Assembly (NCBI GenBank): GCA_018814305.1
Contig: JAHJAA010000075.1
Location: 1-45,007 of the forward strand
DNA length: 45,007 nt
DNA from: Pseudomonadota bacterium
Lineage (GTDB): Bacteria; Desulfobacterota; Desulfobulbia; Desulfobulbales; JAGXFP01
Direction of reading: 5' to 3'
In this document: piece by piece, positions 8,978-16,539 of the stretch
How positions within the stretch are numbered: the first letter of the stretch is position 1
Layout: every line of letters begins with the position of its first letter
Translations under genes and position numbers: made by a program
The notes under the pieces: generated by a model
The model's database searches: none
Seen by the model: only the letters and a program-made list of their open reading frames with translations
Told to the model about the DNA's origin: nothing

Positions 8978-9427
8978 TCAGTCATCAAGCTGAGCAACCG
9001 TCCCCATCAAGGCAACGTTCACCACCATTTTCCCGGCCAAACAGCTATACTCGGTTACACTTTCAAATTTTCTATCCTTGGTTATGGTATAGATGTCCAC
9101 AACCGCATTGCCTCCTTCACGCTGGGCCCTGGACTGCAGAGAGATCAAGGCTGAAAGAAAGGCCACATCACAGGCCACCTGGTCGGATTTACCAAGGCCA
9201 TTACTGCGTTTATTGGCCTCAAATTCACCCAGTTTCTTCTGCAGACCTGGATGTTTTTCTCCCTTCATAAAAAGCTTGATCCCCGGTAATAATTTATCCT
9301 TACCCAAAGCACCGTGAATTGCGTTATCCACCGGAAACTGGTGCCATTGGTCTGCGGCCGAGGCTGAACCTGCGCAGAACAGTAAAGAAAAAAGAACGGC
9401 CATGAAAATTTTCGCATCTCTATCCAT
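8978..9427 (-). CDS. Small secreted protein of unknown function
   Basis: The 149-residue protein has a clear signal peptide (MDRDAKIFMAVLFSLLFCAG, cleavage near ASA-AD). The mature part contains LGKSDQVACDVAFLSALISLQSRA, GGNAVVDIYTI and CLAGKMVVNVALMGTVAQL. This pattern resembles a family of small periplasmic proteins often mislabelled 'excinuclease ATPase subunit' in databases; nothing in it resembles UvrA. Two cysteines in the mature part could form a disulfide. The ATG at 9427 has GGAGAG 6 nt upstream, so an in-frame start further upstream at 9487 is not needed. It is flanked by the efflux operon terminator and the type I secretion operon and appears to be a single gene. Function unknown. 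Confidence 0.75.
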   Translation of the reverse strand: MDRDAKIFMAVLFSLLFCAGSASAADQWHQFPVDNAIHGALGKDKLLPGIKLFMKGEKHPGLQKKLGEFEANKRSNGLGKSDQVACDVAFLSALISLQSRAQREGGNAVVDIYTITKDRKFESVTEYSCLAGKMVVNVALMGTVAQLDD

Positions 9428-9564
9428 TGTCAACTCTCCGTTTGGTATTTTACTGACGATCCCCGCAATGAAACCACCCAAACACACACCTACGGGAACA
9501 AAAGGAAAATCTATAATGAAAACCGAATGATGTCAACTAATCAGACACTTTTCTCAGGATACCA

Positions 9565-9621: not shown

Positions 9622-9834
9622 TTACTTTTCCGACACCCCTATTTTCTTAAGGATAATTCCCATTGGACAGAATTTCGTTAACCCGAACTGAAAGAGGTTG
9701 GCACCGACAAAGGCAGTGAACCAAAGCCAGTACTTACTCATAAAGATTGGGCTCCCCTCCACTCCAAGGGCAAGACTCAGTAAAATAAAGGTACCGGCAA
9801 CTGTATGGATCCAATCTGTAACAATCATTTTCAT
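9622..9834 (-). CDS. DUF2892 (YgaP-type) small inner-membrane protein
   Basis: The 70-residue protein consists of two hydrophobic segments (about 8-27 and 36-53) ending in FCPMGIILKKIGV. This matches DUF2892 proteins, the membrane part of the E. coli rhodanese YgaP, which often end in C-P-hydrophobic residues. GAGGAA precedes the ATG by 6 nt. It lies 99 bp after the RND pump gene and directly before a strong terminator, so it is the last gene of that operon. In E. coli, YgaP is regulated by the ArsR-family protein YgaV. Finding DUF2892 in an operon headed by a similar regulator supports a sulfur-stress link, which is inference. Confidence 0.85.
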   Translation of the reverse strand: MKMIVTDWIHTVAGTFILLSLALGVEGSPIFMSKYWLWFTAFVGANLFQFGLTKFCPMGIILKKIGVSEK

Positions 9835-9933: not shown

Positions 9934-12900
9934 TTATCCGGCCACAGCCCGCTGTCGCCGACTGATCAACATATAATAGAGCACCGGTACCGCCATCCGG
10001 CTGATCAGAAGCGACGCGATCTCACCAAACATCAGGGAGATGGCCAGCCCCTGGAAGATGGGATCGGCCAGGATCACCGAGGCGCCGACCACCACCGCAA
10101 GAGCCGTCAACAGCATCGGGCGGAAACGGATAGCCCCGGCTTCAACCACAGCCTCGGCCAGCGGCAGGCCATGACTGATCCTCAGTTCGATAAAATCCAC
10201 CAGGATAATGGAATTCCGAACCACGATCCCGGCCCCGGCCATGAACCCGATCATCGAGGTGGCAGTAAAAAAGGCACCCAGGGCCCAGTGGGCCGGGAGG
10301 ATCCCGATCAGAGAGAAAGGAATGGCCGCCATCACGACCAGCGGCACCCAATAATCCTTGAACCACCCCACCATCAGCATATAAATCAGAATCATCACCG
10401 CGCAGAAAGCCAGTCCGAGATCGCGGAAGACCTCCAGAGTGATATGCCATTCCCCGTCCCACTTGATGGCGGGCTCATTCTCGGTAAAGGGCTGATTGAG
10501 GTTATAGACCTCGATTTTGTTTTCATTGGAACCGAACTGTCGGCCGTCAATCTTAGCAAGTTGTTTATTCATGTCCAAAATGGCGTAAACCGGACTCTCG
10601 ACCGCCCCGGCCACATCGCCGGTCACATAAATCACCGGTTTCAAATTCTTCCGGTAGATCGGCTGCTCCACCGGAACCTCCGAGACCTTTACCAGTTCTC
10701 GTAAAGCAACCAGAGGGCCTCCGGGATTCAGCATGGAACGCATCTGAAGATTCAGGATAGAGTCAATCCGGGCCCGTTGCGCCTTGGGCAATTCAAGAAT
10801 CACCCCAATGGGCTCCTTGTCGTTGGGCTGATGAAAGAGGTCAATGGGCATACCCTTGACGGCCAGGTCAACCGTAGCAGAGATCTCGCCGACCGAAATG
10901 CCATTCAAGGCGGCCTTTTCCCGATCCACGGTGATCACGGTCTTGGTCCGCTCCGTCTCCTGATACCAATCCACATCCACCACCCCAGGCGTTCCGGTAA
11001 AGACCTCCTTCACCCTGGTGGCCAGCTTAACCCGGGCGGCAGCGGTTGGTCCGTAGATCTCTGCCACCAGGGTCTGCAGCACCGGCGGTCCCGGAGGCAC
11101 CTCGGCCACGGCGACCTGGGCGCCATATTTCTCGGCAATGGCCGCCACTGCCGGTCTCACCCGCTTGGCAATGTCGTGACTCTGGGCTTCGCGCTCATCC
11201 TTGGGCAGCAGATTGATCTGGACATCGGCCACATTGGCCCCCTGCCGCATATAATAATGGCGAACCAACCCATTAAAATTATAGGGCGAAGCGGTTCCGG
11301 CATACACCTGATAGTTGACTACCTCGGGCTCCCGACCGACCACCGCCGCCATCTCCCTGGCCACCTGGGCAGTACGCTCAAGGCTCGTCCCTTCCGGCAT
11401 ATTCAGAATGATCTGAAACTCGCTCTTATTGTCAAAGGGCAGCATCTTGACTTTGACCAGCCCCTTATAAACCATACCGCAAGAGCCGAGCAGTAAACTG
11501 ACAATGACCAGAAAAAAGAGCACCCGCCAGAACACACTCGACAACAGCGGTCCCATAATCCGGTGATAGAGCCGGGTAAAAAAATCATCCGGGGCATGAT
11601 CCTGATGGGGATCGAACTCAAGTCCCGGCTCGACCTCAATGGCACACTCGGCAGGGGAACAATGTTTGCGCAAAACCCGGATGGCCGCCCAGGGGGTAAC
11701 GGTGAAAGCGATAACCAACGAAAACATCATCGCCGCCGAAGATCCGATGGGAATCGGCCGCATATACGGTCCCATGAGCCCCCCCACAAAGGCCATGGGC
11801 AAAATGGCGGCAATTACCGCCCAGGTGGCGAGGATGGTCGGATTTCCCACCTCGTCCACCGCTTCCACCGCAATGTTCAACAAGGACCTGCGTTCATTGG
11901 ACGGTAAGCGGAGGTGCCGGACGATGTTTTCCACCACCACAATGGCGTCATCCACCAGGATACCGATGGAAAAAATCAGGGCAAAGAGGGTGATTCGGTT
12001 GAGGGTGTACCCATAAAGATAGAAGAGCAAAAGGGTCAAAGCCAGGGTTGAGGGAATGGCCAAAATAACGATGATCGACTCACGCCACCCCAGGAAGAAG
12101 AGAATCAACAGGGCCACCCCGAATACCGCAATCCCCATATGAAGGAGCAACTCATTGGACTTCTCGGCGGCGGTCTCGCCATAATCACGGGTTACGCTAA
12201 CCTCCACATCATCGGGGATCAGGTTGCCCTTCAAGGCATCAATCTTGGCCAGGATGGTATCCACCACATGGACGGCATTAGCCCCAGGTCGCTTGGCAAC
12301 CGAGAGGGTGACGGCCGGTTCCTCCCCATGCCCCTTGCCCTGCCCAAACAGGACGTAGGTGTCAGGTTCCTGGGGGCCGTCGATGACGGTGGCAACCTCG
12401 TCCAGATAGACCGGTTTGCCACGGGAGACCCCCACCACAACTCGACCGATCTCCTTGGCGGAGGATAAGAATTGCCCGGTCTGCAGGGTGATCTCTTGGT
12501 TTAATGATTGCAGGGTTCCGGAAATGGTCTGGCGATTGGCCTGCTGGAGACTGGGAATAATATCGGCAGCGGTCAAATGACGGCTGGCCAACCGGCTTGA
12601 ATCAAAGTGGATCCTCACCTGGCGGACCGCCCCCCCGATCAACTTGGTCTCAGCCACCTCATGGATATTCTTGATGGCGTCATCGACTTGGGCCGCCAAC
12701 CGACGTAAGGTATAATGGTCATAGGTTTTGCTATGAAAGGTCAAGGCCAGAATCGGCACATCATCGATGGTGTGGGGCTTGACCAAGGGTTGCGAAACCC
12801 CGTCAGGAATACGATCAAAATTGGTGGCCAATTTCTGATTCAGGCGCACAATGGCATTTTCCATGCTCTCGCCCACGTAAAACCGGGCAATCAACAGACT

Positions 12901-13203
12901 CTGACCGGGCATTGAGGTGGAATAGATATATTCGACCCCGGGAATCTCATAGAGCAATTTCTCCATGGGAATGGAAACCCGCTCCTCCACCTCCTTGGCG
13001 GTGGCGCCGGGCATGGCGACCATCACATCGATCATCGGCACCTTGATCTGCGGTTCTTCCTCCCGGGGCAGCATAACCACGGCCATGACCCCAAGCAGGA
13101 GAGAGGCAACGATCCCGATGGCAGTCAGCTTGGAATCCATAAAATAGGCGGCGAGTCGACCGGCAAAACCTCGGTGGTCGTTGGATTTGGCTTGCTTCAT
13201 CAT
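9934..13203 (-). CDS. RND-family efflux transporter inner-membrane pump
   Basis: The 1089-residue protein has the two-fold RND layout: a membrane helix at about 25-45, a large periplasmic loop, helices from about 350, the proton-relay motif [14 protein letters not shown] with Asp418-Asp419, a second periplasmic loop (about 590-900) and a final helix bundle with [19 protein letters not shown]. It resembles AcrB/MdtB-like hydrophobe exporters rather than the metal-specific CusA type, but the substrate cannot be read from the sequence. It starts with tandem ATGs, the first at 13203 overlapping the adaptor stop by 4 bp. A proton-driven trimer with the adaptor and TolC partner encoded just upstream is expected. 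Confidence 0.95.
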
Positions 13204-14234
13204 TGCACGACCCGAATGGGCTGTCCATCAACAAGCCGGTCATTGCCCTGAATAACAACCTGCTCACCGGCTTCAACTCCGGATAGTATTTCAATCTGAT
13301 CGCCAAGTCGCTCCCCGGTACGAACCAGACGCAAATGGGCGACATCGTCCTTTACCACCAGCAACTGTTCCATCTGACCATACTGTCTCACCGCCGCCTG
13401 GGGAACCATCAAGGTTTTCACCGTGGTACCAGGAATAATCAAGCGGACATACTGTCCCGGCCGAAGTGAGGAGATATCGTCCAGTTGAAGCTTCACGGTG
13501 GTGGTCCGCGACTGGGGATCGGCCGAGGGGGCTATTTCGCTCACCATCCCGGTCTTCTCAAATCCGGCTGCATCGACCCGGACCGGCAAACGGTCACCGA
13601 TCTTGATCCTCATGGCCAGGGCCTCCGGAACCGAGGCCACCACCTGCAGTTTCCGGTTATTTTCCAAAACCAGGAGCGGGGCTCCAGGGGTAGCCAGATC
13701 CCCTGCCTGAAAATTCTTGGCAGCAATCACCCCATCATAGGGAGCGGTGATGGTGGTATAGCCAAGCATGGTCTTGGCTTCGTTATAACCAGCTTGGGCC
13801 ACCCGAAAACCATCTTCCATGGATTTCACCGTCTCCGGGGTCGAGGCCTCCTTGGCCAACAGACGCTGTTCCCTTTCCAGATTCCGACGAACCTGCTCAA
13901 GCTGAGCCTCGGCCTGGGCCACCCGGGCATTAATCTCCCCGGCGCTGATCCGAACCAGAACATCGTCAACCTTGACCACCGATCCCACCTCCACCGGCAG
14001 GGATTCAATGGTCCCGGTAACTTTGGTGGCAATGGTCACCCGCTGGATAGCTTCGACGGTCCCAGTCGCCTCATTGAGACTCTGGGTGGTCTGGGCCACA
14101 ACATTGACAATCTTCACCTGGGCCACCGGAAAGGTCACCGGGTGAATCGCCTCTTCTTTCGGTTTGTCCTTGCATCCACCAACGACCAACAACAGACCGG
14201 TGAGGAGAATGAGCATCCGATTATTTCTAATCAT
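13200..14234 (-). CDS. RND efflux periplasmic adaptor lipoprotein
   Basis: The 344-residue protein starts with a lipoprotein signal ending VVGGC at Cys21, so it should be anchored to a membrane by lipid. The order then is a barrel-sandwich half ([18 protein letters not shown]), a short coiled coil (about 98-150), the second half ([20 protein letters not shown]) and beta-barrel and membrane-proximal domains ending in [22 protein letters not shown]. This is the standard membrane-fusion protein of RND pumps. It overlaps the pump gene by 4 bp (ATGA) and follows the tolC-type gene by 76 bp, in one operon. Confidence 0.95.
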
Positions 14235-14310: not shown

Positions 14311-15663
14311 CTACTCCCCGCCAGAGGACTCCCCAGAGAATTGCGCAAGCCCCAGAGCCCGTCGAAGATCGGCGATGGCGATACGTTGAGCGGTTTCAGC
14401 CAAGGTGCGTCGCAACAAGGCATCGGTCAAACCATTTTCCACCCCGATCAGATCAGAAGCCAAAATCTCTCCCTCCTTAAAACGGGCGCGATGAATTCTG
14501 GCGCTTTCCCTGGCCTGCTCCACGGTTTTTTCGGTAACGGCCAATCGAGTTTCGGCATCCCTTATGGCAAGTTCCGCCTGCTTCACTTCAAGACCGATAG
14601 CCAACTCAACTTTTCTCCGCTGCTCACGAACCTTGGCCAGCATGGCCTCGGCACCTCGCAAGGCGGCATCGGTATGGTGACCATCAAATAGCGGCAGATT
14701 TAATTGAACTCCGGCCTGCCAAGAGGTCCCGCCCCCTCCTGTCACCGTGCCCTGATCAAGGTCGTATCCGGCATAACCGTCTACCGTTGGATAACGGCCC
14801 CCCCGTGCCATATCAACCCTGGCCTCGGCCGCGCGAATCATGGCATCAATACGCTTCAATTCAGGACGCTGATTAATGGTTCTTTCTGCCGGTATTTCCT
14901 GGTCTTTACATGATTGGTCATCGATCTGGACCACCCCGTCCGCAAGTCCCAAAAGATTAAGAAAAATCTTCCGCGTTACCTCCAAACCATTTTCAGCCTG
15001 ACTCACATTTTCCTGAGACCGGGATTGCTGGACTTCCAGATTCAGTAAATCCGTCTTGAGCAAAACCCCTTCACCATACCGGGCCTTGGCAACAGCCAAA
15101 GAGGCGTCAATGGCTTCGAGCCCAGTCCGATGGGCCGCAACTCCACCCTCCGCCTGAATAATCAGATTAAAAATCCGGACAGCATTAAAAGCCAACTGAT
15201 CTTGAACACTCAATAACGCCATTTGAGAAGCGTATTCCTGGGCCTCGGCCGCTTCAATCCCGGCCTGGTCACGACCGCCGTTATACAATCGATAACTGAG
15301 TTTGACTGCCACATTGAAGTCATCCGTCCGTCCCGGATCATTAAAATCAATGGAGGGACTGAAGGCACCCTGATTCAGGATATTACCAAAGGAATACATG
15401 GGATTATCGGTCTGACCGTATCGTGAAGAAAGCGCCAGATGTGGATAAAAGGCAGCCTTCTGCATGGTAATAGCACTATCTGCCGCATCAATTTTATACT
15501 TTGCTATAGTGCTGTCGGGATTGTTGCGCAGGGTAAACAGAACCGCCTCCCTGGCCGTCCAGACCTCGGGAACGGACAAAGACATACCCTCTTCAGCCAA
15601 TACCGGCTGAATCAAAAAGAATAAAAACACAAGAAACAAGCTTACTCTTAACCCAGCTGTCAT
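14311..15663 (-). CDS. TolC-family outer-membrane efflux protein
   Basis: The protein of 450 residues has a signal peptide (TAGLRVSLFLVFLFFLIQPVLA) and two outer-membrane-factor repeats: AVLFTLRNNPD with FNVAVKLSYRLYNGG, and AMIRAAEARVDMARGGRYPT with VQLNLPLFDGH. It would be the outer-membrane channel for the RND pump. The start chosen is the ATG at 15663, with AGGGTGA about 8 nt upstream; the ATG seven codons earlier (15684) has no ribosome binding site. A long TolC (7257-8741) is used by the separate adhesin exporter; the two are not close paralogues by eye. Confidence 0.92.
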   Translation of the reverse strand: MTAGLRVSLFLVFLFFLIQPVLAEEGMSLSVPEVWTAREAVLFTLRNNPDSTIAKYKIDAADSAITMQKAAFYPHLALSSRYGQTDNPMYSFGNILNQGAFSPSIDFNDPGRTDDFNVAVKLSYRLYNGGRDQAGIEAAEAQEYASQMALLSVQDQLAFNAVRIFNLIIQAEGGVAAHRTGLEAIDASLAVAKARYGEGVLLKTDLLNLEVQQSRSQENVSQAENGLEVTRKIFLNLLGLADGVVQIDDQSCKDQEIPAERTINQRPELKRIDAMIRAAEARVDMARGGRYPTVDGYAGYDLDQGTVTGGGGTSWQAGVQLNLPLFDGHHTDAALRGAEAMLAKVREQRRKVELAIGLEVKQAELAIRDAETRLAVTEKTVEQARESARIHRARFKEGEILASDLIGVENGLTDALLRRTLAETAQRIAIADLRRALGLAQFSGESSGGE

Positions 15664-15849
15664 TGGATGGTCACCCTGCCGCATGGAATATTAATGAATG
15701 AAAACTTTTTACAAGAAGCCACGACAACAACCGCCGCGTTATTAAAATCAGCAAAGATATGCCGATTGACGACTCGAAACACCTCCCCCGGACCATAACC
15801 GGTCCCGAGGCCCTCCCAAAACCGATCCCTCCGAGCTAAAGGCAAACTC

Positions 15850-16134
15850 TTAGGACTGACAGAAAAGCCTGCTCATGGTGGCGATCAACTCCAAAACCCT
15901 GGTGTCGGTGATCCGATTAAATATATAGTTGGCCTCCTTCCGAGAGCCGATAATACCCTGATTCCTCAGAATCGATAAATGCTGCGAAACATTCGCATTG
16001 GTCGTTTTGACCTTATCGCGAATATCCCCCACCGCCATCTCCTTTTCCTGCAACAGGCAAAGGATTTTAAGCCTGAGCGGGTGAGACATGGTCTTCAACA
16101 ATGCCGCCACACTTTCCACATGTTCGTCTTTCAC
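15850..16134 (-). CDS. ArsR-family repressor with SqrR/BigR-type cysteine pair
   Basis: From a GTG at 16134 the protein has 94 residues, normal for ArsR winged-helix repressors. It contains LLKTMSHPLRLKILCLL, the recognition helix region TTNANVSQHLSILRNQGI and the wing SRKEANYIFNRI. Cys26 (KILCLL) and Cys92 (RLFCQS, near the end) are 66 residues apart. This equals the spacing of the reactive cysteines in the persulfide sensors SqrR (Cys41, Cys107) and BigR (Cys42, Cys108), which form a tetrasulfide bridge and release DNA. The metal-site CxC of ArsR or SmtB is absent. GAGGG lies 5 nt before the GTG. An upstream in-frame ATG (16203) is rejected because the promoter lies inside that extension. 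It heads the RND efflux operon and is likely its repressor. Confidence 0.88.
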   Translation of the reverse strand: MKDEHVESVAALLKTMSHPLRLKILCLLQEKEMAVGDIRDKVKTTNANVSQHLSILRNQGIIGSRKEANYIFNRITDTRVLELIATMSRLFCQS

Positions 16135-16162
16135 AGCAACCCTCGTATGTATTTCAGTTTTT

Positions 16163-16191
16163 AATTTAATACCAAAACAGAGCCTTGTAAA
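16163..16191 (-). promoter_or_regulatory. Sigma-70-like promoter of the arsR-efflux operon
   Basis: On the minus strand TTTACA (16186-16191) and TAAATT (16163-16168) are separated by exactly 17 bp. Transcription would start near 16156, about 20 nt before the GTG start of the repressor gene. The position explains why an upstream ATG at 16203 cannot be the start. Confidence 0.55.
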
Positions 16192-16539
16192 GTACTCTTT
16201 CATTTTTTTCGAACTCGTTCTTTACCCACGGCTTCCCCGGGCTTGGACCTACCCTCAGTTTTACGCCAAAACCTGGGTTCATCCCCTTAAAATCCACGAG
16301 CAACGGCTCGGCCCACCAATCCCCCAGCACCAAAGCCAGTACGTTGAGAATAATGAAAATTAAGATGCTTTTGAATTTTACTATTTAACTATCTACTGTT
16401 GTAAAAAGCAAAATTTTTTTAGAAAAATCCCGGGGAACAAAAACATGTCAGCATAAAAAAACAATGATGAAATTACAAGGCGTTAACAACAGCAAAAAAA
16501 ACGGCTAAATCCCCATATCTCGTAGGATACTAAAAGGAC
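16192..16539. other. AT-rich intergenic stretch without recognisable gene
   Basis: About 350 bp between the arsR promoter and the end of the polysaccharide deacetylase gene. It is AT-rich, with a homopolymer of seven T at about 16413-16419 and one of eight A near 16494. No coding frame with a ribosome binding site and no convincing hairpin was seen. Confidence 0.5.

Follow-up and report, generated by a model that had tools for sequence, protein, structure and literature searches.

The best-described relatives of the regulator studied here are two-cysteine ArsR repressors that sense reactive sulfur. HlyU, which has this cysteine pair, forms an intraprotomer tetrasulfide with persulfides and then leaves DNA (PMC10509353), and a 2025 Hyphomicrobium study describes intraprotomer tetrasulfide formation and DNA release for the two-cysteine ArsR group (PMC12423496). 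SqrR (Rhodobacter capsulatus) and BigR (Xylella fastidiosa) share with our repressor both the fold and the positions of the two cysteines, but they control sulfide oxidation genes, whereas the targets predicted here are exporters and a DUF2892 protein. In Escherichia coli, ygaP follows ygaV, and YgaV represses the operon (PMC9774250). As at our locus, the gene for a two-cysteine ArsR repressor thus adjoins one for a YgaP-type transmembrane domain (PMC9774250). YgaV is also autoregulated, with the repressor covering the RNA polymerase site (PMC9774250), an arrangement that the sequence suggests for our repressor too. Unlike the DUF2892 protein, however, YgaP has a rhodanese domain, and the ygaVP operon as described contains no RND pump. 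The SqrR-type box of the YgaV study (ATTC-N8-GAAT; PMC9774250) also differs from the motif found here.

Two precedents connect such sensing to RND pumps. In Pseudomonas aeruginosa, sulfane-sulfur sensing by MexR has been reported to release MexAB-OprM (PMC11211675); like our proposal, this places a cysteine-based repressor on an RND pump operon (PMC11211675), but MexR belongs to the MarR family and uses other cysteines (Cys30 and Cys62), with bonding between subunits. The accessible part of the Hyphomicrobium study names RND efflux genes among the neighbors of two-cysteine ArsR regulators (PMC12423496); it is a neighborhood listing and, as far as that part goes, includes no analysis of operators, trans targets, or Desulfobulbales. 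A link between sulfur sensing and an RND pump is therefore less uncommon than a first, sequence-only reading of our locus had supposed. In the open-access literature we found no described Desulfobulbales regulon of this kind, namely one that extends across an order of relatives of sulfate reducers, has a defined operator, keeps DUF2892 as its constant partner, and takes in exporters either in cis or in trans. The link between a sulfur-sensor-type repressor and an RND pump looks real and was partly anticipated, and the present analysis extends it.

The window analyzed is a stretch of 45,007 nucleotides from a member of the Desulfobulbales (contig JAHJAA010000075.1). On its minus strand, the gene for a 94-aa ArsR-family repressor (15850 to 16134) is followed by genes for a TolC-type outer-membrane factor (OMF; 457 aa; 14311 to 15684; OEP, 188.7 bits), an RND periplasmic adaptor (MFP; 344 aa; 13200 to 14234; RND_mfp, 212.3 bits, above the cut-off), an AcrB-type RND permease (1089 aa; 9934 to 13203; ACR_tran), which overlaps the end of the MFP gene by 4 nt, and a DUF2892 or YgaP-like transmembrane protein (70 aa; 9622 to 9834; Pfam YgaP-like_TM). 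The OMF, MFP, and permease genes lie together, as expected of a tripartite RND efflux system, and the gene order (regulator-OMF-MFP-RND-DUF2892), assigned from family profile matches, bears out the earlier description of a three-part RND pump plus a DUF2892 protein. The permease scores far better against the multidrug model RND_permease_2 (434 bits) than against CusA/CzcA (229 bits), and the MFP carries a CusB/HlyD_D23 domain. Farther 3′ of the DUF2892 gene lies a 169-aa open reading frame of no family (8978 to 9487, minus strand) whose product looks secreted. Its membership in the operon is unsupported: it has its own promoter-like site (9536 to 9508), a terminator-like stem (8958 to 8941), and no relatives among about 350 fetched loci, and it is probably a separate unit.

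We placed the repressor start at the GTG at 16134 (stop at 15850), closely preceded by GAGGG. An alternative ATG 69 nt further 5′ would give a 117-aa product, but the conserved promoter and operator would then fall within the gene. The protein contains exactly two cysteines, Cys26 (codon 16057 to 16059) and Cys92 (codon 15859 to 15861), spaced 66 residues apart in the contexts ILCLL and RLFC. Pfam HTH_5 matches at 51.6 bits, and among solved structures its closest relatives are BigR (3e-17), HlyU, YgaV, and SqrR. Both cysteines align with the sensing cysteines of these proteins, without gaps for BigR (3pqj), HlyU, and SqrR (6o8k) and with one gap for YgaV, so that the correspondence with SqrR and BigR drawn in the sequence-only reading agrees with both the open reading frame and the alignments. 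The alignments place the cysteines in helix alpha2 and near the C terminus, which are the SqrR/BigR positions. When sequences were ranked against a profile of the orthologues, all seven reactive-sulfur-sensor sequences came above NolR, Rv0081, SmtB, and CadC. An AlphaFold model (mean pLDDT 92.7) has HlyU, BigR, NolR, and SqrR as its closest solved folds; because NolR is among them, fold alone leaves the function undecided. Nevertheless, the combination of an ArsR winged-helix fold with sequence kinship indicates that the repressor falls with the two-cysteine ArsR proteins of the SqrR/BigR/YgaV/HlyU type. It is not BigR proper, scoring 81.4 bits against a curated cut-off of 155 for the NCBIfam equivalog NF040642. 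By inspection, the metal-ligand motifs of ArsR/SmtB proteins are missing from the repressor: EMAVGD replaces the CxC motif of alpha3, and alpha5 (DTRVLELIATMSRLFC) contains no His and does not have the His/Asp set.

Upstream of regulator genes, CTTTACA is followed after 13 to 14 nt by the inverted repeat STATTWAA-N8-TKAAATAC. Counts of exact palindromes in these regions gave weak signals; the repeat became clear once positions were aligned. In the window it corresponds to a 24-bp operator-like inverted repeat (GTATTAAATTAAAAACTGAAATAC; 16149 to 16172, minus strand), conserved 5′ of orthologues. The predicted promoter (16163 to 16191, minus strand) consists of a -35 element TTTACA (16191 to 16186), a 17-nt spacer, and a -10 element TAAATT (16168 to 16163), which lies inside the repeat; a promoter scan independently recovered both elements. 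The repeat is the best site for the operator PWM in the window (33.4; next nonoverlapping site, 12.6) and the only zero-mismatch match to the consensus in the genome. The runner-up (16373 to 16396), which is preceded by a TTTACA-like sequence, lies about 240 nt 5′ of the repressor start. The SqrR box was ruled out as the operator, since ATTC-N8-GAAT does not occur upstream of the repressor gene and the conserved repeat is a different one. A genome-wide pattern search for the operator gave no excess over a reversed-pattern control (43/49 versus 53/62). No operator-like site was found in front of other sulfur genes in the window genome, and the other candidate sites checked lay mostly inside open reading frames.

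The regulator is present in 112 of 146 genomes and in 48 of the 54 genera of the order, mostly at 60 to 80% identity; the named relatives in the set, from which the order was recognized as Desulfobulbales, are Desulfurivibrio, Desulfofustis, Desulfopila, and Desulforhopalus. Of 101 distinct regulator loci, 100 retain both cysteines, more than chance would give. They are also kept in all four loci that have the same operon as the window, where their loss would have counted against the sequence-only reading. The one exception (G060:C3, about 345878 to 346153) is a second, diverged regulator copy in which the cysteines are replaced by Tyr/Phe; neither DUF2892 nor a pump adjoins it, and it amounts to a natural control. 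Nineteen of 40 loci, like the window, have a polysaccharide deacetylase gene 5′ of the regulator in the same orientation, which argues for one ancestral locus.

The regulator's constant neighbor is DUF2892, not the pump. Of 101 loci, 57 have a DUF2892 gene immediately 3′ of the regulator; in 17, the two are separated by genes for an MMPL-type RND exporter, a LolA-like protein (Pfam LolA_like), and a protein of the outer membrane, and a tripartite pump occupies this slot in only 4 (the window, G003, G017, and G084). The DUF2892 protein itself is conserved at Cys56 (codon 9667 to 9669 in the window, in TKFCPM), which all 83 distinct homologues share within a KFCP motif (83/83) and which we take to correspond to the membrane-domain cysteine of YgaP. 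Within the window's own family, the slot may be empty (G021), hold the MMPL module (G039), or hold the tripartite pump (the window). Of 136 genomes, 36 have an MMPL orthologue, which adjoins the regulator in about 31 by coordinate comparison; the window genome has none. In a permease tree, the linked pumps occupy three separate positions, and branches with good support require at least three changes. These patterns suggest an exchange between the MMPL module and the tripartite pump, although this is not statistically secure; a tendency for genomes with MMPL to lack an operator at the tripartite pump was only a trend (2/8 versus 28/44; P = 0.058). The module adjoins the regulator almost always. 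At one such locus (L052), it lies 0.4 to 5.1 kb 3′ of the regulator and, as at similar loci, its outer-membrane protein has no Pfam family.

Control of the pump by the repressor predicts that the operator also occurs at unlinked pump loci. Orthologues of the window's RND permease (72 to 83% identity) are common in the order at separate loci. We therefore scored the region before the OMF gene with a PWM trained on regulator promoters only, at a threshold of 14. Unlinked tripartite RND operons were preceded by a site at or above this score in 32 of 54 regulator-positive genomes (two linked loci omitted), and 31 regulator-positive genomes reached P ≤ 0.01 against dinucleotide shuffles. In the unlinked pump promoter of G021, for instance, the candidate operator reads ATATTTAATGAAAATCTTAAATAG. 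By contrast, only 1 of 18 regulator-negative genomes had such a site (Fisher test, 31/56 versus 1/18; P = 0.0002, uncorrected for relatedness, the genomes being related and the counts not independent); the other 17, from three genera, had none at this threshold. The single case (G137) is a 75%-complete assembly from a genus (g31) whose other genomes nearly all carry the regulator. Control gene starts in the same loci never reached the threshold (0/219). At the genus level, a pump operator site occurs at least once in 13 of 27 regulator-positive genera. The linked pumps (the window, G017, and G084) have no good operator-like site before the OMF gene (best score in the window, 0.8), which fits transcription of the entire operon from the regulator promoter. 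Given the operator before unlinked pumps, the repressor's control over an RND pump looks real and old; however, about 40% of regulator-positive genomes have no clear operator before the pump, and so control is not universal. The pairing of regulator and pump proposed in the sequence-only reading is therefore backed by comparative operator evidence as regards control, but the regulator's usual neighbor is another gene.

These data are consistent with a mechanism that we consider probable, in which sulfane sulfur releases the two-cysteine repressor and so derepresses the pump and DUF2892. The reduced repressor dimer would bind the repeat at 16149 to 16172 and cover the -10 element, silencing its own operon (repressor, OMF, MFP, RND permease, and DUF2892). 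A rise in cellular sulfane sulfur would lead to a sulfur bridge between Cys26 and Cys92 within one subunit; the bridged dimer would then dissociate from DNA, allowing synthesis of the pump and of the DUF2892 membrane protein. The sequence itself shows the family, the conserved cysteines, the overlap of operator with promoter, and the operator shared by unlinked pumps; the bridging and derepression are inferred from the characterized relatives. Repressor and DUF2892 would form the core pair in Desulfobulbales, comparable to ygaV-ygaP in E. coli, and an RND-superfamily exporter would be added to the regulon in cis, as an MMPL module or a tripartite pump, or in trans via the same operator. Sulfate reducers live in constant sulfide, and H2S as trigger would therefore keep the operon permanently induced. 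Sulfane sulfur (polysulfide, elemental sulfur, or sulfide oxidized by trace oxygen) or another signal is thus a more plausible inducer than H2S. The genome encodes DsrC, in line with dissimilatory sulfur metabolism, which does not prove the inducer.

The same repressor and regulon could instead serve oxidative or xenobiotic stress, with the cysteines sensing thiol oxidation or electrophiles through a disulfide or an adduct. Two-cysteine repressors are able to form disulfides, a drug-type RND pump suits xenobiotics, and YgaV was initially reported to be derepressed by tributyltin (as cited in PMC9774250). However, HlyU, which belongs to the repressor's group, reacts with persulfides but is unreactive toward peroxide and disulfides (PMC10509353), and we regard this explanation as unlikely. 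Still less probable is a repressor that mainly controls itself and DUF2892, with the pump a cotranscribed passenger: the constancy of DUF2892 and the four pump-bearing loci among 101 would fit, but not the operator before unlinked pumps, which is missing in regulator-less genomes and before control genes, nor the three separate pump-regulator linkages. Least probable of all is a metal sensor whose cysteines bind a thiophilic metal and whose pump exports metal or metal-stressed compounds, because the membership in ArsR/SmtB (general metalloregulator model, 78.8 against a cut-off of 55) and the CusB/HlyD_D23 domain are set against the missing CxC and alpha5 ligands, the drug-type permease, and the ranking of seven reactive-sulfur-sensor sequences above SmtB and CadC.

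Release of the repressor by sulfane sulfur, our preferred reading, would mean that bacteria making or living in sulfide adjust how much of a drug-type efflux pump they make through a reactive-sulfur sensor. Intrinsic pump expression would then be tied to sulfur chemistry, a physiological substrate would be suggested for RND pumps in anaerobes, and DUF2892/YgaP-type membrane proteins would gain a role beside export. An order-wide link of sulfur sensing to export is likely. More tentatively, the main output of this persulfide-type sensor in Desulfobulbales might be export and not sulfide oxidation, with regulator and DUF2892 recruiting either type of RND-superfamily exporter (MMPL-LolA-like-outer-membrane protein or tripartite), whether in cis or in trans. 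The exporter would then rid the cell of an envelope compound derived from sulfane sulfur or damaged by sulfur.

Two loci from other orders of the same phylum (L160 in G206 and L163 in G340) also have a tripartite RND operon followed by a DUF2892 protein (47 to 49% identity). At L160, an ArsR protein encoded nearby is missing the first cysteine, and the pairing of pump and DUF2892 may therefore predate sulfur sensing or be independent of it.
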